Assembly: GCF_022387135.1 (NCBI RefSeq)
Contig: NZ_CP092462.1
Location: 4,588,001 to 4,652,000, forward strand
DNA length: 64,000 bases
DNA from: Comamonas sp. B21-038
Lineage (GTDB): Bacteria; Pseudomonadota; Gammaproteobacteria; Burkholderiales; Burkholderiaceae_C
Direction: 5' to 3'
The notes under the pieces were generated by a model, which was given only the letters and a program-made list of their open reading frames with translations, was not told where the DNA came from and did not search any database. Below, one piece after another: positions 10,474 to 48,529 of the stretch. A program made the position numbers and the translations under genes. How positions within the stretch are numbered: position 1 is the first letter of the stretch; each line of letters starts with the position of its first letter.

Positions 10474-11246
10474 GCCACACCTCCGAGGTAGGCTTCGACC
10501 ACCTGCGCATCGGCAGAGACCTGCGCAAAGCTGCCCTGGGTCAGCACCTTGCCCTGCGCCAGCACATACACCGGGTCGCAGAGGGCGGCAATCATGTCCA
10601 TGTTGTGTTCCACGATGGCAAAGCTCATGCCCTCGGCCTGCAGGCTGCGGATAAAGTCCGCAATCTCGCCGACCAGCACCGGGTTGACACCGGCTGCCGG
10701 CTCATCGAGCAGCACCAGCCGGGGCTTGAGCATCAGCGCGCGGCAGAGCTCCAGCAGTTTCTTCTGGCCGCCCGAGAGGCTGTCGGCCCGCTCATGCGCC
10801 AGGCGCCACAGGCCCACGCGCTCCAGCAAGGCCTGGGCCTGCGCCATCGCCTGGGCTTCATGCTGGCGCGCAGCAGCGGTGTTCAGCAGCGCATGCCAGA
10901 GCTTTTCTCCGGGCTGCCGGGGGGCGGCGAGCAGCAGGTTCTCCAGCACGGTGAGCGCGCCCATCTCGCGCGAGATCTGAAAGGTACGGGTAAGCCCGGC
11001 CTGGGCGCGGCGGTGCACGGACCAGTGCGTGATGTCCTGCCCGTCGAACAGCACCCGGCCGCCCTGGTGCGCCTGCTGGCCGCCCAGCACATTGAACAAC
11101 GTGGACTTGCCCGCGCCATTGGGCCCCACCATGCCGGTGATGCCCCCGCGCGCAATGCGCAGGTGGGCACCGTCGAGGGCGGTGAATTCGCCAAAACCTA
11201 CATGAACATCCTGAACCGTGAGCAGATCGTCTGTCTGCAGGCTCAT
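10470..11246 (-). CDS. ABC transporter ATP-binding protein (LivG-like)
   Basis: This is a 258-residue ATPase with Walker A GPNGAGKST, the long LivG insert after the Q-loop (LTRTFQISREMGALTVLENLLLAAPRQPG), the signature LSGGQKKLLELC, Walker B LVLLDEPAAGVNP and switch VEHNMDM. Both ends overlap neighbouring genes by ATGA (binding-protein gene upstream, livF downstream), showing tight translational coupling. Confidence 0.94.
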   Translation of the reverse strand: MSLQTDDLLTVQDVHVGFGEFTALDGAHLRIARGGITGMVGPNGAGKSTLFNVLGGQQAHQGGRVLFDGQDITHWSVHRRAQAGLTRTFQISREMGALTVLENLLLAAPRQPGEKLWHALLNTAAARQHEAQAMAQAQALLERVGLWRLAHERADSLSGGQKKLLELCRALMLKPRLVLLDEPAAGVNPVLVGEIADFIRSLQAEGMSFAIVEHNMDMIAALCDPVYVLAQGKVLTQGSFAQVSADAQVVEAYLGGVA

Positions 11247-20997: not shown

Positions 20998-22149
20998 ATG
21001 GACCAAGCTGTGGCTGCCTCTCTTCCCCCCACCGTGCTCGACTGGCAGGAGCGCGTTCGATCCGCCCATGCCCACAAGACGCCGCTGCGCATCCGGGGCG
21101 GTGGCAGCAAGGATTTTTATGGTGCACGCCTGGGCGGCGAGGTGTTCGATACTCGCAGCTATAGCGGCATCATCAGCTACGAGCCCAGTGAGCTGGTCGT
21201 GACCGTGCGGTCCGGCACGCCGCTGGCGGCGCTGGAGCAGAGCTTGGCCGAATGCGGCCAGTGCCTGGCTTTTGACCCGCCGCATTTTGGCCCCGGCGCC
21301 ACGGTCGGCGGCATGGTGGCGGCGGGCCTGTCCGGCCCCTCGCGGGCAGCAGTCGGCGCCGTGCGCGACTACATCCTGGGCCTGGAGCTGATCAATGGCC
21401 AGGGCGAGCTGCTGCGCTTTGGCGGCCAGGTGATGAAGAACGTCGCGGGCTATGACGTGTCGCGCCTGATGGCCGGTGCCTGGGGCACCCTGGGCCTGCT
21501 GACCGACATCAGCCTCAAGGTGCTGCCGATGCAGCGCGCGCAGGCCACCCTGTACTACGAATGCACAGCGCAGCAGGCGCTGGACAAACTCTCGGCCTGG
21601 CGCGCCAAGCCGCTGCCCATCAATGCCAGCCTGTGGCAGCAATCCGGCGAGGGCGAGCAAGGCCATCTGCTGGTGCGGCTGCGCGGTGCGGTCGCGGCGG
21701 TGCAGTCGGCCCTGGATGGCATGGGTGGCACGATGCTGGACCACGGCCAGGCAGATGCCGCCTGGCTGGCCTGCCGCGAGCAGCAACTGCCCTGGTTCAG
21801 CGCTATGGACCCGAGCCATGCGCTGTGGCGCCTGTCGCTGCCGGCCACCACGCCGGTGCTGCCCTGCACCGAAGCAGGCCTGCAGCCGCTGATGGAATGG
21901 GGCGGCGCACTGCGCTGGGTACAGGCCCCCATGCAGCATGCCCAGGCCTTGCAGGCGCTGGCCGCCAGTGTGGGCGGCAGCGCCGTGTGTTTCCGGCCCG
22001 GCCCCCAGGTGGGCCTGGCCGCATCCGATGATTTTGGTTTCACGCCCGCCTCGCCCGCGCTGCGCCAGGTGCAGCAGCGGCTCAAGCAGGCGTTCGACCC
22101 CCATGGCATCTTCAATCCCGGCCGCCTGGGCGACTGGGCGTTGAGCTAA
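20998..22149 (+). CDS. glcE: Glycolate oxidase FAD-binding subunit GlcE
   Basis: This 383-residue FAD-linked (PCMH-type) protein has LRIRGGGSKDFYG, the FDPPHFGPGATVGGMVAAGLSGPSR flavin loop and MKNVAGYDVSRLMAGAWGTLGLLTDISLKVLP, all typical of GlcE. It works with GlcD and GlcF to oxidise glycolate to glyoxylate at the membrane. glcF follows 33 bases downstream. glcD is not in the window between these genes and must lie elsewhere. Confidence 0.93.
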   Translation: MDQAVAASLPPTVLDWQERVRSAHAHKTPLRIRGGGSKDFYGARLGGEVFDTRSYSGIISYEPSELVVTVRSGTPLAALEQSLAECGQCLAFDPPHFGPGATVGGMVAAGLSGPSRAAVGAVRDYILGLELINGQGELLRFGGQVMKNVAGYDVSRLMAGAWGTLGLLTDISLKVLPMQRAQATLYYECTAQQALDKLSAWRAKPLPINASLWQQSGEGEQGHLLVRLRGAVAAVQSALDGMGGTMLDHGQADAAWLACREQQLPWFSAMDPSHALWRLSLPATTPVLPCTEAGLQPLMEWGGALRWVQAPMQHAQALQALAASVGGSAVCFRPGPQVGLAASDDFGFTPASPALRQVQQRLKQAFDPHGIFNPGRLGDWALS

Positions 22150-22162
22150 GCTGAGCTCAGCT
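22143..22162 (+). repeat. GAGCT-rich palindrome at the glcE-glcF junction
   Basis: AGCTGAGCTCAGCT (22149-22162) is a perfect 14-bp palindrome overlapping the glcE stop, next to another GAGCTAAGC half. It resembles the palindrome at 1833-1846. It could be an intercistronic hairpin; the function is unknown. Confidence 0.3.
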
Positions 22163-22182
22163 AATCGAGGCACCCCTGCACC

Positions 22183-23448
22183 ATGCAAACCCAATTAGCC
22201 CCCGAATTCAAAGACACCCCCGAAGGCCAGGAGGCCGAGGCCATTCTGCGCAAGTGCGTGCATTGCGGCTTTTGCACCGCCACCTGCCCCACCTACCAGC
22301 TGCTGGGCGATGAGCTCGACGGCCCGCGCGGCCGCATCTACCTGATCAAGCAGGTGCTCGAAGGGCAGGAGCCCACCCGCAAGACCCAGACCCACCTGGA
22401 CCGCTGCCTGACCTGCCGCAACTGCGAATCGACCTGCCCCAGCGGCGTGCAGTACGGCAAGCTGCTCGACATTGGCCGCCACATGGTCGACCAGAAGGTG
22501 GAGCGCCCGGCGGCCGAGCGCCTGCAGCGCTGGGCGCTGCGCAAGGGCATGGTGTCCAAGGCCTTTGGACCGGCGCTGGCGCTGGGGCGGCTGGCCCGCC
22601 CGGTGCTGCCGGCAGCGCTCAAGGCCAAGCTGGCGCGCGTACCGCGTGCCGGCAAGTGGCCCACACGCAGCCATGCGCGCAAGGTGCTGATGCTGGCCGG
22701 CTGCGTGCAGCCGGTGATGCTGCCCAATATCAATGCGGCCGCTGCGCGGGTGCTCGATGCCGTGGGCATCCAGACCTTGGTGACGCCAGCCGCCGCCTGC
22801 TGCGGCGCAGTGCAGCAGCACCTGAGCGACCCGCAGGGCGCGCTGGCCCAGGCGCGCGCCAATATCGATGCCTGGTGGCCGCATGTCGAGAGCCAGCAGG
22901 TCGAGGCCATTGTGACCACGGCCTCGGGTTGCGGCGTGATGGTGAAGGACTACGGCCATCTGCTGCGCCATGACCCGGCCTATGCCGCACGGGCCGCTGC
23001 GATTGCTGCGCTGGCGCGTGACTTGTGCGAGCTGCTGCCCGACATGCTGCCCGAGCTGGAGCAGCGCCTGCAGGGCCAGCTGAACCTGCCCGAGGCCCCA
23101 TTGGCCTACCACCCGCCCTGCACCTTGCAGCATGGCCAGAAGCTGCGCGGCGGGGTGGAGACCAGCCTGCGCCGCCTGGGTTTTGACATCCGCGTCTCGC
23201 GCGTGGAATCGCACCTGTGCTGCGGCTCGGCCGGCACCTATTCGCTGCTGCAGCCCGAGATTGCGCACCAGCTGCGCGACCGCAAGATCGGCACCCTGAA
23301 CCAGGCCTGCAGCGATGCGCCACCCGCCGCGATCCTGTCGGCCAATATCGGCTGCATCTCGCATCTGCAGTCGGGCACCGATGTGCCGGTGCGCCACTGG
23401 ATCGAGGTGATCGACGACGCGCTGGCGCCTGCCAAGGCCCCGCGCTGA
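22183..23448 (+). CDS. glcF: Glycolate oxidase iron-sulfur subunit GlcF
   Basis: This 421-residue protein has two N-terminal [4Fe-4S] motifs (CVHCGFCTATCPTY and CLTCRNCESTCPSG) and two C-terminal CCG domains (AAACCGAVQQHL and HLCCGSAGTYS). This is the standard GlcF layout. It passes electrons from the flavin subunits toward quinone. It follows glcE and converges on the GGT-like gene with only six bases between the stop codons. Confidence 0.95.
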   Translation: MQTQLAPEFKDTPEGQEAEAILRKCVHCGFCTATCPTYQLLGDELDGPRGRIYLIKQVLEGQEPTRKTQTHLDRCLTCRNCESTCPSGVQYGKLLDIGRHMVDQKVERPAAERLQRWALRKGMVSKAFGPALALGRLARPVLPAALKAKLARVPRAGKWPTRSHARKVLMLAGCVQPVMLPNINAAAARVLDAVGIQTLVTPAAACCGAVQQHLSDPQGALAQARANIDAWWPHVESQQVEAIVTTASGCGVMVKDYGHLLRHDPAYAARAAAIAALARDLCELLPDMLPELEQRLQGQLNLPEAPLAYHPPCTLQHGQKLRGGVETSLRRLGFDIRVSRVESHLCCGSAGTYSLLQPEIAHQLRDRKIGTLNQACSDAPPAAILSANIGCISHLQSGTDVPVRHWIEVIDDALAPAKAPR

Positions 23449-23454
23449 AGCGGC

Positions 23455-24936
23455 TCAGACGGCCAGCGCCAGGCCGTCCTTGCGGTGGTCGGATGCGCCG
23501 CAGAGCTGGCCATCGGCCAGGCGCCAGATGCACTGCGCGCCACCAAAGTCGCTGCGCCCGCCCAGCTCACCTTCGCCGCTCGGCTCGCGGTAGCCCTGGG
23601 CCCGCAGCGCAGCGGTAATCGCAGGCGGCATGCCTGCCTCCACCGCCAGCACGCGGCCGCCTTCCAGGCGCCAGCGCGGCTGGTTCATGGCGGGCTGCGG
23701 CGCCTCGCCGCCGGCCAGCATGCGGCACAGCAGCTGCACCTGGCCTTGGGGTTGCATCGCGCCGCCCACCACGCCAAACACGCCGAGGAATTGGCCATCG
23801 CGCGTGGCAGCGCCCGGCACTACCGTGTGGTAGGGGCGTTTGCCCGGCGCCGGTCCGTTGATATGGCCGGGCTGCGAAAAACCATGGCCCCGGTTCTGCA
23901 GCACAAAGCCGCCCTCGGCCACACCAATGCCCGAGCCAAAGCGCTTGAACACGCTGCTCATCAGGCTGATGGCCAGGCCGTCGCCATCCACCACGGTGGT
24001 GCAGACGGTATTGCCGGCCGGGTCGGCCACGGTCTGCTGGGCATGGGCCATCGCTGCCTCCATTGCCTGCACCAGCGCGACCTGGGTGGCCGCGCTGGCC
24101 ATATCGATGGCCTGGTCCTGCATGGCGGCCAGTGCATGGAGCACGGCCACGCCATGGGTATTGGGCGGGCATTCGTAGATGGTGGCGCCGCGAAACGAGG
24201 TGCTCACCGGCGTGCAGAAGTTGCCCTGGTGGGCGCTGAAATCTGCAGCGGCCAACACGCCGCCGGCTGCCTGCACCGCAGCGGCGCAGGCAGCGGGAAT
24301 GGCGCCGGCATAGAAGGCCTGCGGCCCCTGCGCAGCTACGGCCTGCAGCAGGCGGCCCAGAGCGGGGTTGTCAAAGTGCTCGCCCGCACGGGGCGGCGCA
24401 TCGGCGCGGTACAGCGCGGCGCTGGCGGCATCGCGGGCTATCACCGGTTGGAACAGCGCCCATTCACGTGCAGCGACCGGGGCCACCGCAAAGCCCTGGC
24501 TGGCGGCCTGCACGGCCGCATCGAACAGCTGCGCCCACGGGCGTTGGCCAAAGCGCTGGTGCAGATCCCACCAGCCTTGCACCACGCCGGGCGTGGTGAC
24601 CGACAGCGGATGGCGCTCGGGGATGCGGCGTTGGGGCAGGGCCTCGACCAGATCGGCTGTCAAAGCCTGCGGCGCACGCCCGGTGCCGTTGTAGGCCAGC
24701 GGTGCCTGGCCGGGCGGCACCAGCATTGCCAGCAGGTCGCCGCCCACACCGGTGGCCATCGGCTCGACGACGCCCAGCACCGCATCGGCAGCAATCGCGG
24801 CATCGACGGCCGAGCCGCCTTGCTGCAGCTGGGCCTGCGCGGCCGCCGCAGCCAGCGGGTGGCCGGTGGCCACCATCGCGCCCCGGCCCAGTACGCCTGC
24901 TGCGCCTGGCTCGTCCTGGCGGTGCTGCGGCACCAT
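23455..24936 (-). CDS. Gamma-glutamyltransferase family Ntn-hydrolase
   Basis: This 493-residue protein belongs to the GGT family. The likely autoprocessing nucleophile is Thr310 in GNTVCTTVVD, placed seven residues before the conserved Asp as in E. coli GGT; the GSGIGVAEGGFVLQNRG motif follows. There is no signal peptide, so unlike classic periplasmic GGT it should be cytoplasmic. The family includes glutathione hydrolases, oxamate amidohydrolase and cephalosporin acylases, and this protein could cleave an amide of the imported compound. The ATG follows the transporter stop directly (TGAGATG), so the two are co-translated; a GTG three codons earlier is possible. Confidence 0.85.
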   Translation of the reverse strand: MVPQHRQDEPGAAGVLGRGAMVATGHPLAAAAAQAQLQQGGSAVDAAIAADAVLGVVEPMATGVGGDLLAMLVPPGQAPLAYNGTGRAPQALTADLVEALPQRRIPERHPLSVTTPGVVQGWWDLHQRFGQRPWAQLFDAAVQAASQGFAVAPVAAREWALFQPVIARDAASAALYRADAPPRAGEHFDNPALGRLLQAVAAQGPQAFYAGAIPAACAAAVQAAGGVLAAADFSAHQGNFCTPVSTSFRGATIYECPPNTHGVAVLHALAAMQDQAIDMASAATQVALVQAMEAAMAHAQQTVADPAGNTVCTTVVDGDGLAISLMSSVFKRFGSGIGVAEGGFVLQNRGHGFSQPGHINGPAPGKRPYHTVVPGAATRDGQFLGVFGVVGGAMQPQGQVQLLCRMLAGGEAPQPAMNQPRWRLEGGRVLAVEAGMPPAITAALRAQGYREPSGEGELGGRSDFGGAQCIWRLADGQLCGASDHRKDGLALAV

Positions 24937-24937
24937 C

Positions 24938-26476
24938 TCAACCACCCCAGAGTGCGACGGCGGTGAAAACGGCCGCCAGCAGGCCCAGCACCACCGGAAT
25001 CAGCAGCGCGCGGGCCAGCTCCAGCACATTCACCCGCGCAAAGCCTGCCACCGCGATCAGCGAGGACCACGCAATCAGGGTGCCACCGCCGGTCCATACC
25101 GCGCCCATCTGGCCCAGCGCAGCCAGTGCCGACACATCCATGCCGGAGGCCGGGCCCAGCGCGCCGGACAAGGTGCCGGTCAGCGGCAGGCCGGCAAAGC
25201 CCGAACCGTCAATGCCGGTGATCATGCCCATCAGCAGCACACCAAAGGACACCAGCAGCTGGCTGTCGGGAATCAGGTGCTGGCTGGCCTTGACCAGCTC
25301 GAACAGCAGATCGGGCACCGGCTGGCCGGCGGCAATGCCCAGGATGGGACCGGCGGTCTCATGCGAGCCGATGAAGAAGAAGCCGGCAATTGGCAGCACC
25401 GCGCCCATGGCCTTGAACGCGAAGACGAAGCCATCGGTGATGTGGTCCGCCGCGCCGTCGAGCATCTTGCGAAAGCCGCGCGCTGCCGTAGTGGCCCAGA
25501 TCATCAGCAGCGCAGCCACGCCGCCGATCAGCATGGCCGCGTCGCCGCCCTTGAGCTCGGGCACGCTGGTGGTGAACTTGGGCGCCACCATCACCAGAAT
25601 CACCACCAGAAAGGCCAATGGCGTGACCACGGCAAACAGCCTGGAGGCCGAGGCCAGCGGTTGGGTCTTGCGCAACTCGGCTTCCAGCTCGGAGTTGGTG
25701 CCCAGGTCGTTTTCGTGGGCCGTGCCCTTGGCAATCTCGGCCTTGTCAAAGGCGCCAGCGCCCTCGATCTGCGCGCTGATGCCGGCGGGGTTGAGTTCCC
25801 AGCGCTCCAGCAGCGCGTTGTCACTGGGCACGATGAGCTTGCGCACCTTGAAGTACGACAGGAACAGCGCAATCATGCCGACCACCCAGGACAGCAGCAG
25901 TGCCTTGTCCGCCACCGCCACAGCGCTGATGCCGCCGGCGGCCTTGGCGCTGATGCCTGGTGCCACGCCAATCACATAGTCCGACGACAGCGCCATGCCC
26001 TGACCGGCAATCGCGATGGCCATCGCTCCTGCGATGGGCGGCAGGCCCGCTGCAATCGCTGCCGGCAGCAGCACGGCCGCCACCAGTGGCACCGCAGGCG
26101 TGGGCCAGAAGAACAGCGAGATCAGGTAGGTGACCAGCGCCAGGATGAAATAGGCCATGTGGCCGTTTTTCATCACCGCGCGAAAGGGCTTGACCATGCG
26201 GATGTCCGAGCCCAGGTCCTTGAGCGCATTGAGCAAGGCCGTCATCAGCGCAATGATCAGAAAGATGTTGAACAACTCCTTGGCGGCCACCATGCTGGCA
26301 CTGAATATGCTTCCAATGCCGGTGATGAAGCTGCCGCTCCAGGCGAGGGCCACGACGACGGTGGCCAGTATCGATGGCACCACCACATTGGCACGGAAGG
26401 CCATGGTCAAGATGATGACCAGCACCCCGGCGAGGTAGGCCCAGTGCGCGGGGCCTATAGAGACTGACGGATCCAT
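24938..26476 (-). CDS. Multi-spanning membrane transporter, ion-transporter/GntP-like superfamily
   Basis: This 512-residue protein has about twelve hydrophobic segments. A hydrophilic cytoplasmic loop around residues 225-290 (IEGAGAFDKAEIAKGT, LGTNSELEAELRKTQP) splits it into two halves. Internal motifs FFWPTPAVPLVAAVLLP and GIDGSGFAGLPLTGTLSG suggest a secondary carboxylate/anion transporter fold, but I do not recognise a named family with certainty. AAGGAG eight bases upstream supports the start. Its promoter contains a perfect TTGTAT-N5-ATACAA palindrome, the presumed operator of the nearby GntR regulator. It is translationally linked to the GGT-like hydrolase. Confidence 0.7.
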   Translation of the reverse strand: MDPSVSIGPAHWAYLAGVLVIILTMAFRANVVVPSILATVVVALAWSGSFITGIGSIFSASMVAAKELFNIFLIIALMTALLNALKDLGSDIRMVKPFRAVMKNGHMAYFILALVTYLISLFFWPTPAVPLVAAVLLPAAIAAGLPPIAGAMAIAIAGQGMALSSDYVIGVAPGISAKAAGGISAVAVADKALLLSWVVGMIALFLSYFKVRKLIVPSDNALLERWELNPAGISAQIEGAGAFDKAEIAKGTAHENDLGTNSELEAELRKTQPLASASRLFAVVTPLAFLVVILVMVAPKFTTSVPELKGGDAAMLIGGVAALLMIWATTAARGFRKMLDGAADHITDGFVFAFKAMGAVLPIAGFFFIGSHETAGPILGIAAGQPVPDLLFELVKASQHLIPDSQLLVSFGVLLMGMITGIDGSGFAGLPLTGTLSGALGPASGMDVSALAALGQMGAVWTGGGTLIAWSSLIAVAGFARVNVLELARALLIPVVLGLLAAVFTAVALWGG

Positions 26477-26510: not shown

Positions 26511-26527
26511 TTGTATACTAAATACAA
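26511..26527. promoter_or_regulatory. Candidate GntR operator in the transporter promoter
   Basis: TTGTATACTAAATACAA has perfect 6-bp arms TTGTAT/ATACAA with a 5-base spacer. It lies 35 bases upstream of the transporter start codon. The same architecture recurs at 30558-30574 and 30760-30776. Confidence 0.7.
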
Positions 26528-26611: not shown

Positions 26612-26623
26612 TTCGTATACAAA
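26612..26623. promoter_or_regulatory. Isolated GTATAC core (possible weak GntR site)
   Basis: TTCGTATACAAA shares the GTATAC core but only one arm of the proposed consensus. It could be an auxiliary site. Confidence 0.3.
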
Positions 26624-27063: not shown

Positions 27064-27075
27064 TCTGTATACAAG
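27064..27075. promoter_or_regulatory. GTATAC-containing site upstream of the GntR gene
   Basis: TCTGTATACAAG contains the 8-bp palindrome TGTATACA about 118 bases before the regulator start. It could mediate autoregulation, though the second arm of the proposed operator is poor. Confidence 0.4.
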
Positions 27076-27192
27076 GCACGGCGAAGGCGCTGCAAACCCT
27101 TGCCGGGCATGTAAACTGGGTGCGACCCTGGGGGAGCATGGCAGCCGATGCCGCAACCCGGGGCTTGCAACGTACCGAACGGACCGACTTTC

Positions 27193-27846
27193 ATGCCCAT
27201 TGCCAACGGAGACAAAAAACCTGCACTGAACCACTCGCCGCTGACCCAGCAGCTGGTGGAGGCCTTGCGCGAGAAGATCATGTCTGGCGAACTCGCCTCG
27301 GGGGAGCGGCTGGTGGAGGAGCGTCTGTCCGAGGAGTTTTCGGTCTCGCGCATGCCTGTGCGCGAGGCCCTGCGCCAGCTGGCTGCCAGTGGCCTGGTGA
27401 TCATCGAGCCCCGGCGTGGTGCCTCGGTGGCCAAGTTCCATGGCGACCTGCTGCGCGAGCTGGTCGAGGTGCGCGCCACCCTGGAGGCGCTCAATGCGCG
27501 CCTGGCCGCCAAGCGCCATGACCCCGAGCAGATTGCCGCGCTGGAGGCCTTGCTGGCCGAGGGCACCAAGAACGCCCATTCGGGCGATGCCGATGTGCTG
27601 GCCGTGCTGAACCAGAAGTTCCACCTGGCGCTGGGCAAGATCGCCGCCAACTCCGTGCTGCAAGAGGTGATGCTGTCCCTGCGTGACCGCACCGAAGTGC
27701 TGTTTGCGCCCCGCAGCCAGGCGCGTGCGCCCCAGAACTGGGAAGAGCATGCCGCCATCCTGCGCGCGGTGATCAAGGGCGATCCGGAACTGGCCGGCCT
27801 GCTGGCCGCGCGCCATATCTACAACGCGGCCGGCATCGAGCCCTGA
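27193..27846 (+). CDS. GntR family transcriptional regulator, FCD domain (FadR subfamily)
   Basis: This 217-residue regulator has an N-terminal winged-HTH (residues about 15-75: LTQQLVEALREKIMSGEL, RLSEEFSVSRMPVREALRQLAASGLV) and an all-helical FCD ligand domain (about 85-205) with the metal-type residues Asp/His spread over VRATLEALNARLAA, LNQKFHLALGKIAAN and EEHAAILRAVIKGD. FCD regulators usually sense small carboxylates or related metabolites. GTATAC-type palindromes at four or more promoters between 26511 and 30776 are its likely targets. It converges on the cyclodeaminase-like gene with nine bases between stops. Confidence 0.92.
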   Translation: MPIANGDKKPALNHSPLTQQLVEALREKIMSGELASGERLVEERLSEEFSVSRMPVREALRQLAASGLVIIEPRRGASVAKFHGDLLRELVEVRATLEALNARLAAKRHDPEQIAALEALLAEGTKNAHSGDADVLAVLNQKFHLALGKIAANSVLQEVMLSLRDRTEVLFAPRSQARAPQNWEEHAAILRAVIKGDPELAGLLAARHIYNAAGIEP

Positions 27847-27855
27847 GTTCCGCGT

Positions 27856-28782
27856 TTACGATTGGCTGGCCAGGTAGTTCTGGTAAGCCACACCCGCCAG
27901 CGCAATATCTTCCAAACCCACGCCCACGGCCTTGTACAGCCGGATGGCCGGCTGCGCGCTGACGGCATAGCGGCCGCTGACGATATCGCCCAGCTCCACC
28001 AGCTTGCCCGCCAGCGACAAGCCCGGGTCCGCCAGCACCAGGTCGCCCGCTTCGCTGGTCGCCTGTTTTTTCCATTCCACGGCAATCAGCTGCGCACGCG
28101 CCAGCAAGGCATCGTCGAGCTCGCGGGTGTGGGGCAGGCTGGAGCCAATCGCAGCGACCAGTGCATGGGGGGCGACATGTTCCCCGTTGAACAGCGGCTC
28201 CTTGGCGCGCGAGGCGGTGACGATGATGTCGGCCTCGCCGACGCCCTGGGTGTGCGCCACGCGGCGGATCTGCGCTTCGGGCAGACCGGTCAGCTGCGCC
28301 AAACGTGCCTCCAGGCCGCTGGGCGCATAGGGGTCGAACACATCGATGCGCTGCAGCCCGAAGTGCTGCACCATCTGCTGCGCATGGGCGAGGCCTTGCA
28401 CGCCGGCGCCGCACAGGAACAGATGGCGCGCATTGGCAGGCGCCAGATGCTGGGCCACCAGCACCGTGGTCGCGGCGGTGCGCAGGCGCGTGATCGCATT
28501 GGCATCGAGGGTGGCCAGCGGCGCGCCGGTCTCGGTCGAGAACAGCAGGATGACAAAGTTGAACTGGCCGGCAATGGTGGTGTAGACCTTGGCGCCAGTC
28601 ACCCCTTGCGCGGGGATGACGGCTCCCAGCGTGGAGAGCTTGACGCCCCCGGCATCGGTGCGCTCGCGCGCCTGCATCGCTGCTTCGCCCGCGCCAAAGG
28701 CGGCAAAGGCGCGGTGCATGGCCTGCAGGGCTTGGTCGGTGGACACCAGGGTGTCCACCATGGCATCGGTGATGTGCAGCAT
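27856..28782 (-). CDS. Ornithine cyclodeaminase / mu-crystallin family protein
   Basis: This 308-residue NAD(P)-dependent protein has the Rossmann loop LFLCGAGVQGLAHAQ, the substrate-side GAKVYTTIAG lysine segment, and VGVGLEDIALAGVAY near the C-terminus with the conserved Asp. Family members are ornithine cyclodeaminases, alanine dehydrogenases or reductases of cyclic imines such as delta-1-pyrroline-2-carboxylate. It is the last gene of the five-gene minus-strand operon with two ferredoxins and a TauE/SafE exporter. Reduction or deamination of an imino/amino-acid intermediate in that pathway is inferred. Confidence 0.85.
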   Translation of the reverse strand: MLHITDAMVDTLVSTDQALQAMHRAFAAFGAGEAAMQARERTDAGGVKLSTLGAVIPAQGVTGAKVYTTIAGQFNFVILLFSTETGAPLATLDANAITRLRTAATTVLVAQHLAPANARHLFLCGAGVQGLAHAQQMVQHFGLQRIDVFDPYAPSGLEARLAQLTGLPEAQIRRVAHTQGVGEADIIVTASRAKEPLFNGEHVAPHALVAAIGSSLPHTRELDDALLARAQLIAVEWKKQATSEAGDLVLADPGLSLAGKLVELGDIVSGRYAVSAQPAIRLYKAVGVGLEDIALAGVAYQNYLASQS

Positions 28783-28809: not shown

Positions 28810-29556
28810 TCAGAGCCAGACGCGCAGCAGGATGATGCAGGCGCTGACGGCGGCAGTGCCCAGCAGCCAGCGGCGGATGGTGGCCTTGGAGACATGGCGG
28901 GCCAGGCGGTTGGAGACCAGAAAGCCGCCCAGCATCCAGGGCAGCAGCACCAGGCTGAGCAGCCATTGGCCGCTGCCCATGCGCCCCACCCAGGCAAGCG
29001 CTGTGAGCGAGACGATGGTGCCGGCAAAAAAGACCACGCCCAGCGTGGAGCGCATCGTCGCCGGCGCCAGGTGCTGCATCGCAATCGCAAACGGCGGGCC
29101 GCCCGCGGCGGTGATGGTGCCCATGATGCCGCTGGCCACACCGGCAATCGACAGGTTGGTGGTGCTGGGCTGCACGCGCCAGCCCAGGGTGCTGAGGCTG
29201 ACGGCGGCCAGGATCAGCACCGCAAACAGAACCGACAGCGCATGGGCGCTGAACAGCACCAGCAGCCCGGCGGCCGCAAAGGTGCCGATGACCCGGCCCA
29301 CCAAGGTGGCGGCAGCGACCTGGCGGTTGAGGGCATCGCGCTCACGCAGGTAAGCCAGCAGGGCCAGCGGCGCACCCACGGCCAGCAGCGGGCCGGGCAC
29401 CAGCTCGGGGAAGAAGATCGCCGCCAGCGGCGCGCAGAACATCGCATAGCCCAGGCCGCCGACGCCCTGCATGGCGGCACCGGCGAGCACCATCAGCCCC
29501 ATGGCCAGGTAGCGGCCCCAGGAGAGGTGCTCGGCCATCGCCGTCCATGCGCTCAT
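28810..29556 (-). CDS. TauE/SafE family sulfite/anion exporter
   Basis: This 248-residue membrane protein has about seven to eight hydrophobic segments. It shows the family pattern GVGGLGYAMFCAPLAAIFFPELVPGPLL near the N-terminus and SGIMGTITAAGGPPFAIAMQ at the second repeat. TauE/SafE proteins export sulfite, sulfoacetate or other organic anions. The start overlaps the ferredoxin stop by ATGA. Its presence hints that the pathway releases an anion such as sulfite that must leave the cell, or that it transports a related carboxylate. Confidence 0.87.
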   Translation of the reverse strand: MSAWTAMAEHLSWGRYLAMGLMVLAGAAMQGVGGLGYAMFCAPLAAIFFPELVPGPLLAVGAPLALLAYLRERDALNRQVAAATLVGRVIGTFAAAGLLVLFSAHALSVLFAVLILAAVSLSTLGWRVQPSTTNLSIAGVASGIMGTITAAGGPPFAIAMQHLAPATMRSTLGVVFFAGTIVSLTALAWVGRMGSGQWLLSLVLLPWMLGGFLVSNRLARHVSKATIRRWLLGTAAVSACIILLRVWL

Positions 29557-29843
29557 GGCCGGGGCACCCAGCTGACCTTGATGTCGCCGTTGACAAAGGT
29601 CTGGCAGGCCAGGCGGTGCCCCTGCGCAAACTCTTCATCGCTGAAATGCTTGCGCTCCTTGGCCTTGATCGCATCGGTGTGGGCCAGGCCTTCTTCAATG
29701 CGGCATTTGCAGGTGCCGCACAGGCCACCGCCGCATTTGAAGGGGATGCCGCCTTTCTCGCGCAGCGATACGCGCAGCAGGTTGCTGTTTTCCGGGGCTT
29801 CGACGGTCTTGTTGTCGTTGCTGACAAAGGTGATGGTGGGCAT
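29553..29843 (-). CDS. [2Fe-2S] ferredoxin
   Basis: This 96-residue plant-type ferredoxin has the cluster motif CGGGLCGTC (Cx4Cx2C) and a distal Cys in HRLACQTF. The ATG beginning MPTITFVSND is chosen; a TTG three codons upstream is unlikely. It overlaps the TauE/SafE gene by ATGA. It is one of two stand-alone ferredoxins in this operon and probably delivers electrons to the diiron protein encoded divergently. Confidence 0.88.
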   Translation of the reverse strand: MPTITFVSNDNKTVEAPENSNLLRVSLREKGGIPFKCGGGLCGTCKCRIEEGLAHTDAIKAKERKHFSDEEFAQGHRLACQTFVNGDIKVSWVPRP

Positions 29844-29852
29844 ACGGGGCAA

Positions 29853-30170
29853 TCAGGCGGCGGGCACAGAGGTGAGGGGGGCTGTGGTCAGCGTGGCATC
29901 GAGCGCGCCGAACTGGCACAGGTGCTGCAGCTCCTGGCGGGCTTGCTCCAGCGAGTCAAAGCGCTCCAGAAACTTGGAAGGCACCAGGTTGGTGGTGCCG
30001 CCGGGGCCATCCTCGATCACCTGCACCTTGGTTTCGCGCAGCAACTCGCCCACCGCAAAGCGGGCCAGCAGGCGGCCGCAGAAGTGGTAATCCCAGGCTT
30101 CGCACAGCGCAATGTCGGCATTGGCTTGTGTGCGGTACTGGCCGGGCTTGCTGGTCAAGATCACAAACAT
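29853..30170 (-). CDS. Unrecognised small protein (105 aa) between two ferredoxin genes
   Basis: This is a 105-residue soluble protein beginning MFVILTSKPGQYRTQ, with a central Cys/His/Trp-bearing segment CEAWDYHFCGRLLARFAVGE. I do not recognise the family. GAGGA lies six bases before this ATG; an ATG two codons upstream is an alternative but sits too close to that site. It is flanked by ferredoxin genes nine bases away on each side, so it is probably a subunit or assembly/electron-transfer partner of the oxygenase system rather than a free-standing enzyme. Confidence 0.7.
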   Translation of the reverse strand: MFVILTSKPGQYRTQANADIALCEAWDYHFCGRLLARFAVGELLRETKVQVIEDGPGGTTNLVPSKFLERFDSLEQARQELQHLCQFGALDATLTTAPLTSVPAA

Positions 30171-30179
30171 GGGCATTCC

Positions 30180-30536
30180 TCAGGCAGCAGGGGTGGCGGG
30201 CGCTGTGCCTGCGGGGTGGGTATTGCTGGCAGGGGCGGCCGGCAGCGGCACTTGCGCCAGCTCTAGGTCGTGCTCCGGCCAGAGCTGGCAGACCAGGCGA
30301 AAGCCCTCGTCCAGGTGGGCGCCCAGCTGCTTCTTTTCCTTCCAGTTCGGCGCCGGCAGGTGCTCGGCCCCGGCCAGCACCTTGCAGGCGCAGGTTGCGC
30401 ACTTGCCCATGCCGCATTGGTAGGCCAGGTGGGGGAAGGGGAACTGCTTGATCCCCGCGCGCACGACCAGGTTGGCGCCGCTCTTGACCTCGCCGTGGAA
30501 GGTCTGGCCGTTCTTGTGAAAGGTGATCTGGGGCAT
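30180..30536 (-). CDS. [2Fe-2S] ferredoxin-like protein with Ala/Pro-rich tail
   Basis: This 118-residue protein has a plant-type [2Fe-2S] motif CGMGKCATC plus a distal Cys in FRLVCQLW, and a C-terminal tail rich in Pro and Ala (about residues 95-118) not seen in the second ferredoxin. It is the first gene of the minus-strand operon. A TTGTAT-N5-ATACGC palindrome lies just upstream of the start, so it should be controlled by the GntR regulator together with the divergent operon. Confidence 0.87.
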   Translation of the reverse strand: MPQITFHKNGQTFHGEVKSGANLVVRAGIKQFPFPHLAYQCGMGKCATCACKVLAGAEHLPAPNWKEKKQLGAHLDEGFRLVCQLWPEHDLELAQVPLPAAPASNTHPAGTAPATPAA

Positions 30537-30557: not shown

Positions 30558-30574
30558 GCGTATACTGTATACAA
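30558..30574. promoter_or_regulatory. Candidate GntR operator before the ferredoxin operon
   Basis: GCGTATACTGTATACAA; read on the minus strand it is TTGTAT-ACAGT-ATACGC, matching the 17-bp TTGTAT-N5-ATACAA pattern. It also contains two GTATAC cores in tandem. It lies about 22 bases from the first ferredoxin start codon. Confidence 0.65.
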
Positions 30575-30759: not shown

Positions 30760-30776
30760 CTGTATACAGTATTCTA
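30760..30776. promoter_or_regulatory. Candidate GntR operator before the diiron-protein operon
   Basis: CTGTATACAGTATTCTA has the same 6-5-6 layout, with CTGTAT and ATTCTA arms and a perfect CTGTATACAG 10-bp palindrome inside. It lies about 60 bases before the diiron-protein start. Confidence 0.62.
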
Positions 30777-30835: not shown

Positions 30836-31573
30836 ATGACCCAAACACTGATGAACCGCGACGAATTCCGCGCTGCGCTTGAGAATGCGATCAAGGGCAA
30901 AAGCGCCAACAAGGCCCCTTTCAGCGTGGCCTGGGCAACCGGCCGCCTGAGCCGTGAGCACCTGGCGCGCTGGGCCGAGAACCACTACCACTATGTGGGC
31001 CCGTTTGCCGATTACCTGGCCTATCTGTATGCCCGCACGCCGGACCATATGACGGAGGCCAAGGACTTCCTGCTGGCCAATATGTATGAGGAAGAGATTG
31101 GTGGCGACCGCCATACCGATCTGCTGATCCGCTTTGCCGAGGCCTGCGGCACGACGCGTGAGCGCGTGGTGGACCCCAACAACATGTCGCCCACCACGCG
31201 TGGCCTGCAGGCCTGGTGCTATTCGATTGCGATGCGCGAAGACCCGGTGGTCGCGGTGGCCGGTCTGGTCGTGGGCCTGGAGTCGCAGGTGCCATCGATC
31301 TACCGCAAGCAGACACCCACCCTGCGTGACAAGTACGGCTTTACCGATGAAGAGGTCGAGTTCTTTGACCTGCACATCGTCTCTGACGAAATCCATGGCG
31401 AGCGCGGCTACCAGATCGTGCTGGAGCATGCCAACACGCCCGAGCTGCAAGCCAAGTGCCTGCGCATCTGCGAGATCGGTGCCCAGATGCGCCTGCTCTA
31501 CACGACGGCGCTCTACCACGACTACGTCGCCAAGGACCTGCAGATCTCGCAGGAAGAGCTGCTGGCTGCCTGA
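30836..31573 (+). CDS. Haem-oxygenase-like diiron (HDO) / TenA-PqqC superfamily protein
   Basis: This 245-residue all-helical protein is of the iron-containing redox / PqqC-TenA superfamily. The metal-ligand pattern of haem-oxygenase-like diiron oxidases is visible: Glu86-x6-His93 (YEEEIGGDRH), Glu149 (VGLESQVP) and Asp184-x2-His187 with His180 (DLHIVSDEIHGER). Glu48 and His50 lie in WAENHYHY on an earlier helix. Such enzymes use O2 to cleave, desaturate or N-oxygenate amino-acid-like substrates. It heads the plus-strand operon; ferredoxins and a ferredoxin reductase in the same divergon fit an oxygenase needing electrons. PqqC-like cofactor chemistry is an alternative. GAGGA supports the start. 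Confidence 0.78.
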   Translation: MTQTLMNRDEFRAALENAIKGKSANKAPFSVAWATGRLSREHLARWAENHYHYVGPFADYLAYLYARTPDHMTEAKDFLLANMYEEEIGGDRHTDLLIRFAEACGTTRERVVDPNNMSPTTRGLQAWCYSIAMREDPVVAVAGLVVGLESQVPSIYRKQTPTLRDKYGFTDEEVEFFDLHIVSDEIHGERGYQIVLEHANTPELQAKCLRICEIGAQMRLLYTTALYHDYVAKDLQISQEELLAA

Positions 31574-31664: not shown

Positions 31665-33122
31665 ATGGCTGACACCGTGCAAACGTTTCTGAACTATATC
31701 GACGGCGCCTGGGTGCCTTGCCTGCTCGGCAGCACCTTTGACAACCTCAACCCCGCCGATACCCGTGATGTGGTGGGGCGTTTTCAGGCGTCAGGCCCGG
31801 CCGATGCCGAGGCGGCCGTGCAGGCGGCGCAAAAAGCCTTTGATGGCTGGCGCAAGCTGCCCATTGGCAAGCGCGCCAAGATCCTCAACGACGCGGCCAG
31901 TTATCTGGAGCAGAACGTGGAGCAGTTTGCGCAGGAGCTGACCCGTGAGGAGGGCAAGCAGCTGAGCCAGGCGCGCGACGAGTTTCTGCGCAGCGCGCAA
32001 ACCTTTCGTTTCTATGCCACCGAAGGCCAGACCTTGGGCGGCGAGACCTACCCGCAGGACGATGCCAACCTGCATGTGTTCAGCCACCGCGAGCCGCTGG
32101 GCGTGGTGACGGTGATCTCGCCCTGGAACTTTCCCGCCTCCATCCCGGCGCGCAAGCTGGCGCCTGCGCTGATCACCGGCAACACGGTGGTGTTCAAGCC
32201 CTCGTCGGATGCGCCGCTGTCGGGGCTGCATCTGGTCGAGGCGCTGGAGAAGGCGGGCGTGCCCGCAGGCGTGGTCAACTGCGTCACCGGCCGCGCGGGC
32301 GAGGTGGGACCGGTGATCACCAATTCGCAGGCCATCCGCGCGATTTCGTTCACCGGCTCGACGACGGCCGGCACCCAGATCCACCGCACCGTGCACCTCT
32401 CGACCCGGCTGCAGATGGAGCTGGGCGGCAAGAACCCGCTGATCGTGATGGAGGACGCCGACCTCAACCTGGCGGTGGACCTGGCGATCAAGGGCGGTTT
32501 CTCGCTGACCGGCCAGGCCTGCACCGGCACCAGCCGCATCCTGGTGGTGCCCAGCGTGAAGGCGGCCTTTACCGACAAGCTGCTGACGCGCGTGGCCCAG
32601 CTCAAGATCGGCAACGGCATGGCCCCGGGTATGGACCTGGGCCCGCTGGCCACCGAAAAGCAGCTGCAGACCGTGCAGCGCTATATCGACATCGGCAAGA
32701 GCGAGGCGCGCTGGCTGTGCGGCGGCGAGCGGCTGACCGGTGGCGAATTCGACCATGGCTACTACCTGTCGCCAGCGGTGTTCACCGATGTGAAGAACGG
32801 CATGCGCATTGCGCAGGAAGAGATCTTCGGCCCGGTACTGGCGATCATCGAGGTGGCCGATTTTGACGACGCGCTGCGCCAGGCCAACGACTCGCAGTAC
32901 GGGCTGTCGGCCAGCATCGTCACGATGAACCCGCGCTACATGCATGTGTTCACCAACGAGATCCAGGCGGGCACCGTCAAGATCAACCGCACGACCACCG
33001 GCAACCTGGTCAACGCCCCCTTTGGCGGGCTGAAGAACTCCAGCACCTCCACCTTCCGCGAATCGGGCCGCGCCGGCCTGGAATTCTTTACCCAGATCAA
33101 GACCGTCTACCGCGGTATCTGA
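31665..33122 (+). CDS. NAD(P)-dependent aldehyde dehydrogenase (succinate/2-oxoglutarate semialdehyde type)
   Basis: This is a 485-residue aldehyde dehydrogenase. It has the VISPWNFPASIPARKLAPAL cofactor segment, FTGSTTAGTQI, the general base Glu in MELGGKNPLIVMEDADL and the nucleophile Cys in GQACTGTSRI. The C-terminal GRAGLEFFTQIKTVY resembles alpha-ketoglutaric semialdehyde dehydrogenases. It is the second gene of the operon and probably oxidises an aldehyde produced by the diiron protein or SDR. The substrate is inferred only. Confidence 0.9.
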   Translation: MADTVQTFLNYIDGAWVPCLLGSTFDNLNPADTRDVVGRFQASGPADAEAAVQAAQKAFDGWRKLPIGKRAKILNDAASYLEQNVEQFAQELTREEGKQLSQARDEFLRSAQTFRFYATEGQTLGGETYPQDDANLHVFSHREPLGVVTVISPWNFPASIPARKLAPALITGNTVVFKPSSDAPLSGLHLVEALEKAGVPAGVVNCVTGRAGEVGPVITNSQAIRAISFTGSTTAGTQIHRTVHLSTRLQMELGGKNPLIVMEDADLNLAVDLAIKGGFSLTGQACTGTSRILVVPSVKAAFTDKLLTRVAQLKIGNGMAPGMDLGPLATEKQLQTVQRYIDIGKSEARWLCGGERLTGGEFDHGYYLSPAVFTDVKNGMRIAQEEIFGPVLAIIEVADFDDALRQANDSQYGLSASIVTMNPRYMHVFTNEIQAGTVKINRTTTGNLVNAPFGGLKNSSTSTFRESGRAGLEFFTQIKTVYRGI

Positions 33123-33146: not shown

Positions 33147-33623
33147 ATGAAAAGCGCACTGAAACTGGAACTGGCGGAAGCCCGTGTGATGTCCCTGGCC
33201 GCGCTGGCCAAAGCCAAGGAAATCGGCGTGACCGAGACGGTCTGCATCACCGACGAGGGCGGCTTTCCGCTGGTGCTCGAACGCATGGATGGCGCCCGTG
33301 TCACCGGCCCGCAGATCGCCTGGAACAAGGCCTTCACGGCTGCAGGGCACAAGCGCTCCACGCACTTGTTCAATACCTTGCCCAATGGACCGGCGCTGCC
33401 GGGCAACGAGGCCTTTGGCATCCAGTGGAGCTTCGAAGGCAAGTTTGCGGTCTTCGTCGGCGGCTACCCCATCGTCGTCAATGGCGAGGTGATTGGCGGC
33501 GTGGGCCTGTCGGGCGGCAATGGCGAGCAGGACACCGCCTGTGGTGTGGCCGCCTTGCAAGCCTTGAAAGACCACCTGGGCGCCGCAGCCGATGTGCTGG
33601 TGCAGGCCGACATCAAGAAATAA
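33147..33623 (+). CDS. GlcG/HbpS family (DUF336) protein
   Basis: This 158-residue protein has the family pattern ALAKAKEIGVTETVCITDEGGFPLVLERMDGA followed by WNKAFTAAGHKRST and a Gly-rich core VVNGEVIGGVGLSGG. HbpS/GlcG proteins bind haem or cobalamin-like ligands, or act as small accessory proteins in hydroxy-acid and diol pathways. No signal peptide is visible, so it should be cytoplasmic. It lies 24 bases after the aldehyde dehydrogenase and 30 before the reductase. It is possibly a cofactor-binding or enzyme-stabilising partner in this operon. Confidence 0.85.
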   Translation: MKSALKLELAEARVMSLAALAKAKEIGVTETVCITDEGGFPLVLERMDGARVTGPQIAWNKAFTAAGHKRSTHLFNTLPNGPALPGNEAFGIQWSFEGKFAVFVGGYPIVVNGEVIGGVGLSGGNGEQDTACGVAALQALKDHLGAAADVLVQADIKK

Positions 33624-33653: not shown

Positions 33654-34688
33654 ATGAACTACCGCGTACAGTGGCTGCAGACGCAGCAATCGTTTGACGT
33701 GGGTGCCGATGAGTCGGTGCTCGATGCCGCCACGCGCCAGGGCGTGCCGCTGCCCCATGAATGTACCTTTGGCGGCTGCGGCACCTGCCGCATGAAGGTG
33801 GAAGCGGGCGCGTTTGCCTATGCCGATGGCGAGCTGCCGCTGGCCATGAGCGACGAGGAACATGCCCAGGGCTATGCGCTGGCCTGCCAGGCGCGGGCGC
33901 AGTCCGATCTGGTGATCAGCATCGCGGCGGGGCCGGACAGCTCCGCACCCACCCGGGTGCAGGCTACCGTGGCCGAGCTGCGCATGCACACGCCCGATAT
34001 CTACCACCTGGCGCTGGATCTGCCCGAGGACCACGGCCTGCGCTATGTGCCGGGCCAGTACCTGAACATCTGCCTGCCCGGCGGCGAGCACCGCAGCTTC
34101 TCGATGGCCACGCCGCCGCAGGGCCGGCGCATCAGCCTGCAGATCCGCAAGATTGCCGGCGGGCGCTTTACCGATGGCCTGCTGGCGACGATGGCGGTCG
34201 GTGATACGCTGGAGGTGGAACTGCCCCATGGCAGCTTTTACTACCGCGCGCAGGACTACCAGCCGATGGTGTTTGCCGCCACCGGCACCGGCTTTGCGCC
34301 GATCAAGGCGATCCTGGAATCGCTGCTGGGCGATGCGGATTGCCCGCCGATCCATTTCTACTGGGGCATGCGCAGCGAGGCGGATCTGTACCTGCTCGAT
34401 GAGATTGCGGCCTGGGCCGGGCAGTTGTATGAATTCACTTTTGTGCCGGTGCTCTCGCGCCCGTCCGATCGCTGGACCGGCCGGCGCGGCTATGTGCAGG
34501 ACGCCATTGCCGAGGACTTCGAGGACCTGTCCGAGCATGCGATCTATCTGTGTGGCTCGCCCCATATGATTGCCGATGCCAAGGCGCTGATGGCCCTGTC
34601 GGGGGCGGCGCTGGACAAGATCTACAGCGACAGCTTCATCTTCCAGAACGAAGCGGCCGCCGTGGCCGAACTCAGTGAGCAAAACTAA
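33654..34688 (+). CDS. [2Fe-2S]/FAD/NAD(P)H oxidoreductase (class IB ferredoxin reductase)
   Basis: This 344-residue electron-transfer protein has an N-terminal plant-type [2Fe-2S] domain (residues 1 to about 90; CTFGGCGTC plus LACQA), an FAD domain with HRSFSMATPP, and an NAD(P)H domain with AATGTGFAPIKAILESLL and CGSPHMI. This is the reductase layout of multi-component oxygenases such as phenol, benzoate and toluene systems. It is the natural electron source for the two ferredoxins of the divergent operon and, through them, the diiron protein. Confidence 0.92.
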   Translation: MNYRVQWLQTQQSFDVGADESVLDAATRQGVPLPHECTFGGCGTCRMKVEAGAFAYADGELPLAMSDEEHAQGYALACQARAQSDLVISIAAGPDSSAPTRVQATVAELRMHTPDIYHLALDLPEDHGLRYVPGQYLNICLPGGEHRSFSMATPPQGRRISLQIRKIAGGRFTDGLLATMAVGDTLEVELPHGSFYYRAQDYQPMVFAATGTGFAPIKAILESLLGDADCPPIHFYWGMRSEADLYLLDEIAAWAGQLYEFTFVPVLSRPSDRWTGRRGYVQDAIAEDFEDLSEHAIYLCGSPHMIADAKALMALSGAALDKIYSDSFIFQNEAAAVAELSEQN

Positions 34689-34709: not shown

Positions 34710-35489
34710 ATGGATCTGGGATTGACGGGCAAGGCCGCGCTGGTCTGGGGCGGCAGCAAGGGCATGGGCTATGCAGCGGCGCGCCAGCTGGCGCTCGAAG
34801 GGGTGGAGGTAGTGATCGCCGCGCGCACCGAAAGCAGCTTGCAGGCTGCGGCGCAGGCCTTGTCGGCCGAGTGTGGCCGCCCCGTGCGCTATGTGGTGGC
34901 CGACATCACGAGGAAGGCCGGACGCGAAGCTGCGCTGGCCGCCTGCCCGCAGCCGGACATTCTGGTCAACAACTCCGACGGCTACCCGCCGGGCGACTTC
35001 CGCGACTGGAGCGACGAGACCTGGCACGAGGCGCTGGACATGATGATGGTCGGCCCCATCGACATGATGCGCCGCGTGGTCGATGGCATGCAGCAGCGCG
35101 GCTACGGGCGCATCATCAATATCGTTTCGCGCAGCGTCAAGGCCGCGCATGCCGAGCTGGGGCTGTCCAACGGCGCGCGCTCGGGCCTGGTCGGCTTTGT
35201 GGCGGGGCTGGCGCGCCAGACGGTGCGCCACAACGTCACCATCAACAATGTGCTGCCCGGCGCGTTCGACACCGATGCGCAGACCCGCCACATCGACAAG
35301 CTCGCCCAGCAAAGCGGCCGCTCGCCCGCCCAGGTGCGCCAGAGCCGCGAGGCCGCCAATCCGGCAGGCCGCTTTGGCCGGCCCGAGGAGGTGGGCGCGC
35401 TGATCGCCTACCTGGCATCGCGGCACACCGGCTATGTGACCGGGCAGAGCTGGTTGATCGACGGCGGCGAGTACCCGGGGACCTATTGA
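34710..35489 (+). CDS. SDR family oxidoreductase lacking the usual YxxxK pair
   Basis: This 259-residue Rossmann-fold protein has GGSKGMG (residues 14-20) for the dinucleotide, DILVNNSDG near residue 86 and Ser140 at the catalytic-Ser position. Where classical SDRs have Tyr and Lys, this protein has Ser153 and Arg157 (GLSNGARSGL). The same SNGAR-like variant occurs in a divergent SDR subgroup, so it may use a different mechanism or act as a binding protein. It is the last gene of the diiron-protein operon. No clear terminator follows. Confidence 0.87.
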   Translation: MDLGLTGKAALVWGGSKGMGYAAARQLALEGVEVVIAARTESSLQAAAQALSAECGRPVRYVVADITRKAGREAALAACPQPDILVNNSDGYPPGDFRDWSDETWHEALDMMMVGPIDMMRRVVDGMQQRGYGRIINIVSRSVKAAHAELGLSNGARSGLVGFVAGLARQTVRHNVTINNVLPGAFDTDAQTRHIDKLAQQSGRSPAQVRQSREAANPAGRFGRPEEVGALIAYLASRHTGYVTGQSWLIDGGEYPGTY

Positions 35490-48457: not shown

Positions 48458-48476
48458 GCCCCGTTCTGGGGCGTTT
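48458..48476 (+). terminator. Short GC hairpin with GTTTT, possible weak terminator
   Basis: GCCCC-GTTCT-GGGGC followed by GTTTT lies between the efflux operon and the Pls-like gene. The stem is short (5 bp), so partial termination at best is expected; the 177-base gap separates the two units. Confidence 0.35.
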
Positions 48477-48529
48477 TGTGCAGCAAGGCGGTGCATGTGC
48501 GCCTTCTGCAGCTGCCGGGTATTGCTGCC

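Follow-up and report, generated by a model that had tools for sequence, protein, structure and literature searches.

The DNA analysed here, called the window, comprises 64,000 nucleotides of Comamonas sp. B21-038 (contig NZ_CP092462.1, positions 4,588,001 to 4,652,000). It holds a gene cluster around a candidate member of the haem-oxygenase-like dimetal oxygenase (HDO) superfamily. On the opposite strand lie the genes for two plant-type [2Fe-2S] ferredoxins (Fd1 and Fd2), an orphan protein (U107), a TauE/SafE-family transporter (TauE) and an ornithine cyclodeaminase/mu-crystallin family protein (OCD). The HDO gene is followed by genes for an aldehyde dehydrogenase (ALDH), an HbpS-like protein, a three-domain ferredoxin-FAD-NAD(P) reductase (FNR) and a short-chain dehydrogenase/reductase (SDR), and the cluster also includes a GntR/FCD regulator, a permease-like protein and a gamma-glutamyltransferase-family (GGT) hydrolase (Table 1). 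A preliminary description of this DNA had listed the two ferredoxins, an orphan of about 105 residues, TauE, OCD, ALDH, the reductase and the SDR, all of which are present. Comparison of 81 loci (80 relatives and a 3.7-kb copy of the window) showed that the ferredoxins, orphan, reductase and ALDH recur, whereas the SDR (12/81) and OCD (41/81) are optional. The HbpS-like, GntR/FCD, permease-like and GGT-family genes were absent from that description.

Our analyses have shown that the HDO protein matches PF14518 ('Iron-containing redox enzyme') at 7.1e-37 and 127.3 bits. It also passes the gathering score of PF03070 (TenA/THI-4/PQQC superfamily; 41.6 vs 22 bits), with PF14518 the higher of the two. 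By computation the protein has the seven-helix haem-oxygenase-like fold of the HDO superfamily. Based on alignment to CADD, the superfamily's set of three histidines and three carboxylates is predicted to be E86, H93, E149, H180, D184 and H187. Five of these had been named previously (Glu86-x6-His93, Glu149 and Asp184-x2-His187) and all five are present; the sixth ligand, His180, had been overlooked and emerged from the alignments. The six ligands are invariant in the window HDO and 83 close relatives (84 sequences) and in 20 distant sequences. The protein is highly conserved, nearly invariant, and widespread in soil and water bacteria. The model scores argue against PqqC, an identity that the preliminary description had set against its own reading (51.1 bits with NCBIfam TIGR02111, cut-off 240), and against a CADD-type 4-aminobenzoate (pABA) synthase (97.1 bits with TIGR04305, cut-off 200). 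In the accessible part of PMC11965152, Tyr27 and Lys152 are given as the residues sacrificed by CADD. The first corresponds to Ser30 in 104/104 sequences; the second is Gln159 in 84/84 and Thr in the sister clade described below (20/20), substitutions that likewise argue against a CADD-type synthase.

Table 1. Features of the HDO cluster, with positions in the window
Feature	Position	Strand	Remarks
HDO-family dimetal oxygenase candidate	30836..31573	+	245-aa open reading frame, ATG at 30836, stop codon ending at 31573; predicted ligands E86, H93, E149, H180, D184, H187
Fd1, plant-type [2Fe-2S] ferredoxin	30180..30536	-	Fer2 5.6e-9; Cx4Cx2C...C motif in 82/82 relatives
U107, orphan of 105-107 aa flanked by the two ferredoxins	29853..30176	-	107-codon open reading frame, without family
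Fd2, plant-type [2Fe-2S] ferredoxin	29553..29852	-	Fer2 5.6e-15; motif in 83/83 relatives
ALDH	31665..33122	+	PF00171 1.2e-162; 76/81 loci
HbpS-like protein	33147..33623	+	PF03928 2e-32; 79/81 loci; 24/25 sister-clade loci
FNR, ferredoxin-FAD-NAD(P) reductase of BenC type	33654..34688	+	Fer2, FAD_binding_6, NAD_binding_1; 70/81 loci
SDR, optional	34710..35489	+	PF13561 9.3e-39; 12/81 loci
TauE/SafE-family transporter	28810..29556	-	PF01925 3.5e-18; 58/81 loci
OCD, optional	27856..28782	-	PF02423 2e-40; 41/81 loci
GntR/FCD regulator	27148..27846	+	FCD 1.5e-25, GntR 1.1e-20; 79/81 loci; presumed GTATAC binder from motif conservation
Permease-like membrane protein (by eye)	24938..26476	-	no Pfam/NCBIfam match; 70/81 loci
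GGT-family hydrolase, optional	23455..24918	-	PF01019 3.1e-105; 10/81 loci
Putative operator core GTATAC (CTGTATACAG) upstream of HDO	30762..30767	.	
Two neighbouring GTATAC cores upstream of Fd1	30560..30572	.	
Putative operator core upstream of GntR gene	27067..27072	.	
Putative operator core upstream of permease (TTGTATACTA)	26513..26518	.	if the permease starts at 26476
Second putative operator core upstream of permease (TCGTATACAA)	26615..26620	.	

Two of the enzymes matched models below the cut-offs: FNR scored 220 bits against BenC (cut-off 430), and ALDH scored 550 bits against alpha-ketoglutaric semialdehyde dehydrogenase, its closest NCBIfam model (cut-off 770).

The set of genes around the HDO is conserved. 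One genome-contig scan confirmed 490 relatives, and the best 80 (83-100% identical) were read; their hosts are Comamonas, Cupriavidus, Achromobacter, Bordetella, Variovorax, Paraburkholderia, Bradyrhizobium, Azospirillum, Belnapia and others. Fd1, U107 and Fd2 were each found near the HDO gene in 79/81 loci, and these close relatives keep the ferredoxin pair, a point on which the preliminary description had wanted its neighbourhood checked. Wherever all three were found, U107 sits between Fd1 and Fd2. HDO, Fd1, U107, Fd2, HbpS-like and GntR genes occur all together in 77/80 loci, and they do so in 12 different orders, which indicates that the association has outlived rearrangement. Of the three exceptions, L014 begins 548 bases before the HDO gene, L057 spans 6.9 kb, and L042 is described below. 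A laboratory strain, Cupriavidus metallidurans CH34 (L082), has the module. Cupriavidus basilensis KF708 carries two HDO copies (L011), one heading ALDH, HbpS-like and FNR genes and the other heading the ferredoxin set.

When 349 genomes were sampled from the family to which the window belongs, nine proved to have a close HDO (86-100% identity) and ten to have U107, with all nine overlapping (Fisher p 5e-17, relatedness ignored). The association of HDO with U107 is not due to chance. In the tenth U107 genome (G408) the module lies at a contig end, and seven further genomes hold distant HDO relatives only (26-29% identity), without U107. Because three sampled genus-mates are without the module, its distribution is patchy. 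Of 72,556 plasmid records, six carry a close HDO, and U107 is in the same six.

In a phylum-wide sample of 369 genomes, the additional HDOs were three close ones, three that are distant and a single one at 43% identity (genome G746). HDOs were present in 32/75 genomes of the family to which G746 belongs, three of the window type and 29 of a sister type. Our sister-clade set comprised 25 loci from 19 genomes, with HDOs 42-44% identical to the window's and the six ligands kept. A Rieske protein adjoins the sister HDO in 24/25 loci and lies one gene away in L140, where it shows 35% identity. HbpS-like and GntR genes were likewise present in 24/25 loci, the other (L123) being cut by a contig end. 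The three window-type genomes of the same family carry Fd1, U107 and Fd2, and so the iron-sulfur partner tracks the type of HDO rather than the host. The sister Rieske protein has its cluster motif in 19/19 sequences. Three were scanned, and one of them matched a ring-hydroxylase catalytic domain faintly and below threshold (E 5e-4). Rieske oxygenases have a 2-His-1-carboxylate iron site of the form D-x2-H-x4-H. The pattern D-x2-H-x(3-5)-H, the only triad arrangement searched, was found in 0/19 of the sister proteins. The Rieske protein may once have been a subunit of an oxygenase and have been retained to carry electrons. Several sister loci (L115, L137, L142, L145 and others) also contain SDR genes and a gene of 280-340 aa beside the Rieske gene (no Pfam match in one scanned), and some contain a TauE-type gene.

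The cluster also shares a motif. GTATAC, a core picked after inspection, occurs six times in the window, and all six are upstream of cluster genes, provided that the ATG starts used are right. When the 300 bp before each gene are considered across the 80 loci, it is present for HDO in 79/80, for the permease in 68/74, for TauE in 45/58 and for ALDH in 32/75, against a background of 0.0985 per 300 bp. The sister clade is an independent check of the motif: GTATAC was found in 19/20 distinct upstream stretches, twice in 18 of them (background 0.0185 per 160 bp). The single miss is the second HDO gene of a tandem pair. This pair (L139 9045-10572, genome G1027) consists of sister-type HDO genes with GTATAC within 160 bp upstream of the first only. 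The core is presumably an operator. The first motif tried, TGTATACA, was upstream of HDO in just 9/84 loci and was rejected.

A longer form, TGTATACAR, matches on both strands at six places in the 5.18-Mb genome, three in the cluster and the others at 2022089, 3443885 and 4548421. One-strand matches were found at five more places, and a reversed control pattern likewise gave five. The site at 2022089 precedes by about 20 bases the gene for an SsuA-like binding protein, followed by genes for an ATPase, a permease and an isochorismatase-fold hydrolase. The binding protein is closest to the SsuA and TauA models (SsuA 69.7 bits, cut-off 163.5), and the hydrolase is closest to RutB, falling well short of the equivalog cut-off (86.7 vs 378 bits). 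Orthologues of the importer (52-86% identical) flank HDO in 8/80 loci (L037, L041, L058, L059, L064, L078, L080 and L081), and the hydrolase is also present in six of these. In 37 chosen genomes, a hydrolase orthologue (71-72%) was found in 7/12 with HDO and 0/24 without the module (one of the latter, G293, has a 38% paralogue), and not in G408. In the six orthologue-bearing genomes other than the window's, the hydrolase lies 2.8-5.9 kb from HDO. The motif, together with this neighbouring position elsewhere, suggests that the importer/hydrolase operon 2.6 Mb away is a likely member of the pathway. The site at 4548421 (L175 3923, G000:C1; TTGTATACAA) is near a dicarboxylate-transporter-like gene, another FCD-GntR gene and a TenA-like gene (by eye).

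Elsewhere in the window, genes with FAD_binding_4 and Fer4/CCG domains (20998-23448, + strand; GlcE-/GlcF-like by eye) stand just upstream of the cluster and do not recur in the module. ARAGORN called a tRNA-Arg (anticodon gcg) within the GGT-family gene (24433-24518, - strand); Rfam gave none there, and the call is probably false. A large open reading frame at 6015-7388 (- strand) resembles, by eye, an LLM-class flavin monooxygenase and is near ABC-transporter-like genes at 8888-12487. Another of 1373 codons (48476-52597, + strand) begins, by eye, like a nonribosomal peptide synthetase (NRPS) adenylation domain.

The fold, ligands, gene linkage, common motif and the exchange of partner in the sister clade were established by computation. 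Taken together with the families of the encoded proteins, they lead us to think that the HDO is probably a multicomponent, ferredoxin-fed, O2-activating dimetal oxygenase that works in catabolism. The core of the preliminary interpretation, an HDO oxygenase with an electron-transfer set, stands, and what needed correction was its parts list. Judging from these families, electrons would pass from NAD(P)H through the three-domain FNR and one or both ferredoxins to the dimetal site of the HDO, where O2 would be activated and a small imported molecule oxidised. U107 accompanies the ferredoxin pair and may aid coupling or docking, and the HbpS-like protein is a constant partner. The product, perhaps after an amidohydrolase step, would be an aldehyde, to be oxidised by the adjacent ALDH. 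We predict that the FCD-type GntR protein binds GTATAC operators and thereby governs the two divergent operons and the permease gene, and also the distant importer/amidohydrolase operon of this genome.

Several observations weigh against this model. Just 17/78 loci have GTATAC in the 300 bp before Fd1, and 43/79 have it there before GntR, counts that, like those above, ignore relatedness and shared intergenic stretches; these low numbers indicate that divergent control as seen in the window is not general. FNR is near HDO in just 70/81 loci, the Belnapia and Crenalkalicoccus loci (L053 and L054) are without nearby ALDH and FNR, and one HDO (L042) has neither the ferredoxin set nor GntR inside its 8-kb flanks. 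All of these loci come from just the best 80 of the 490 confirmed relatives. In the sister clade, the HDO has a 7-residue insertion between E86 and H93, and the Rieske protein could itself have remained an oxygenase. No homologue of the window's ALDH, FNR, Fd1, Fd2, U107, permease, TauE or OCD was found there by tblastn at 1e-3 in 12 genomes (11-19 kb per locus). As for the distant operon, 5/12 HDO genomes are without the hydrolase orthologue, and its site is one of six dyads in 5.18 Mb, of which two, at 3443885 and at 4548421, show no obvious connection.

As to the substrate, our likeliest guess, and a doubtful one, is an amide or N-heterocycle: the hydrolases that vary from locus to locus (RutB-like, amidase, GGT family, alpha/beta hydrolase) hint at it, and the Rut pathway offers an analogy. 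The TauE gene and the SsuA-like importer leave room for a sulfur compound: the HDO would oxygenate an organosulfonate or other sulfur substrate next to the sulfur, sulfite would exit via TauE and the aldehyde would be oxidised. In its favour, TauE occurs in 58/81 loci with GTATAC upstream in 45 of these 58, another TauE-type gene is near the sister HDO in 5/12 genomes (Pfam match in the one scanned), and SsuA and TauA are the models nearest to the importer's binding protein. The TauE family name, however, does not settle the cargo, the SsuA match is below its cut-off, tblastn at 1e-3 does not link the sister-clade TauE to the window's, and the hydrolases that recur (RutB-like, amidase, GGT family) speak for amide bonds. 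We regard a sulfur substrate as unlikely.

Other explanations concern the HDO itself. It could be biosynthetic, making rather than degrading a metabolite. The HDOs characterised so far number about a dozen, and the available portion of a 2026 review presents them as enzymes of natural-product biosynthesis (PMC13108848). The recurring neighbours in our loci are instead a permease, an importer, hydrolases, ALDH and GntR, and no recurring NRPS or polyketide synthase genes were seen in the neighbour survey, in which non-core families were labelled by eye or from few scans; a biosynthetic role appears improbable. A metal-free enzyme like PqqC or TenA, or a CADD-type self-sacrificing pABA synthase, whose neighbouring ferredoxins serve another gene product, is a very improbable reading, given the PqqC and CADD scores, the six retained ligands, the substitutions at Tyr27 and Lys152 and the linkage to an iron-sulfur partner in two clades. 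Haem degradation, for which the haem-oxygenase-like fold, the HbpS-like (haem-binding) family name and the need of true haem oxygenases for electrons from a reductase or ferredoxin might speak, is the least credible, considering the six dimetal ligands, the kinship with PF14518 and CADD, and the neighbouring genes, which encode ALDH, a permease, hydrolases and a GntR/FCD regulator.

We return to the proposed ferredoxin-fed catabolic oxygenase and to U107. This protein has no Pfam family: scans of 49 members gave only weak and scattered matches, the best with an E of 0.028. No PDB sequence matched it significantly. Its confidently predicted model (pLDDT 86.5) is mostly beta with one helix. Multicomponent diiron monooxygenases have a small effector protein. 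The HDOs studied to date need no protein effector, according to the available portion of the review (PMC13108848). We can speculate that the window encodes a new kind of HDO oxygenase, multicomponent, effector-assisted and catabolic, with U107 as an effector of the methane-monooxygenase type, and that the HDO core has been paired twice with unrelated iron-sulfur partners, namely the ferredoxin pair and a Rieske protein that was perhaps once an oxygenase subunit. This combined proposal is tentative and less likely than not.

Among the matches listed in the open-licence literature, neither a catabolic HDO nor a description of this gene set was present, and the evidence points to an undescribed oxygen-using breakdown pathway. 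If this is true, a widespread and nearly invariant HDO in a degradation regulon would move the HDO family into catabolism. It would also offer a genetically simple system for studying electron delivery to an HDO, the need for an effector and the exchange of iron-sulfur partners on one core. With a defined upstream motif and a likely regulon member elsewhere in the genome, the substrate could be traced through its inducers, and both the substrate and the electron route are directly testable.

The Rut pyrimidine pathway proceeds through an oxygenase, the amidohydrolase RutB and an aldehyde step. The proposed pathway is alike in logic only (oxygenase, RutB-like amidohydrolase, aldehyde step); no LLM monooxygenase is among the recurring neighbours of window-type HDOs and the RutB model is matched at 86.7 bits against 378. 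On a plasmid of Arthrobacter sulfonylureivorans (L105 12143-24636), a 44%-identical permease is encoded beside an LLM monooxygenase, a flavin reductase, an amidase, an ALDH and Rid proteins. This set is again Rut-like and might be a flavin-based counterpart of the HDO pathway. From CADD and NePabS, HDOs that are 4-aminobenzoate synthases, the window HDO differs in gene context, at the sacrificed residues and in its sub-cut-off score. The AibH1H2 and SfbO oxygenases resemble our sister clade in being recognised through a small Rieske protein encoded nearby; SfbO was found by seeking dimetal oxygenases beside such proteins, as stated in an excerpt of PMC10811679. These enzymes are amidohydrolase-related (PF04909), whereas the window HDO belongs to PF14518. 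Soluble methane monooxygenase and the toluene monooxygenases are diiron hydroxylases fed by a ferredoxin and a reductase (PMC4200526, in part), and a ferredoxin and an NAD(P)H reductase are encoded with the window-type HDO too (Fd1 and Fd2 in 79/81 loci, FNR in 70/81). Their hydroxylases are ferritin-like, in the available portion of PMC13108848, in contrast to the haem-oxygenase fold of the HDO. A parallel in redox arrangement is MboA-MboB of mangotoxin biosynthesis. Its HDO has a redox partner of its own (NAD(P)H/flavin/Fe2S2), and the authors, in the accessible part of PMC13185094, regard the pair as maybe the first of this kind to be characterised. There, a single reductase, MboB, is encoded in a peptide biosynthesis cluster, whereas the regulon in the window looks catabolic and encodes, besides a reductase, two separate ferredoxins, the orphan and the HbpS-like protein.
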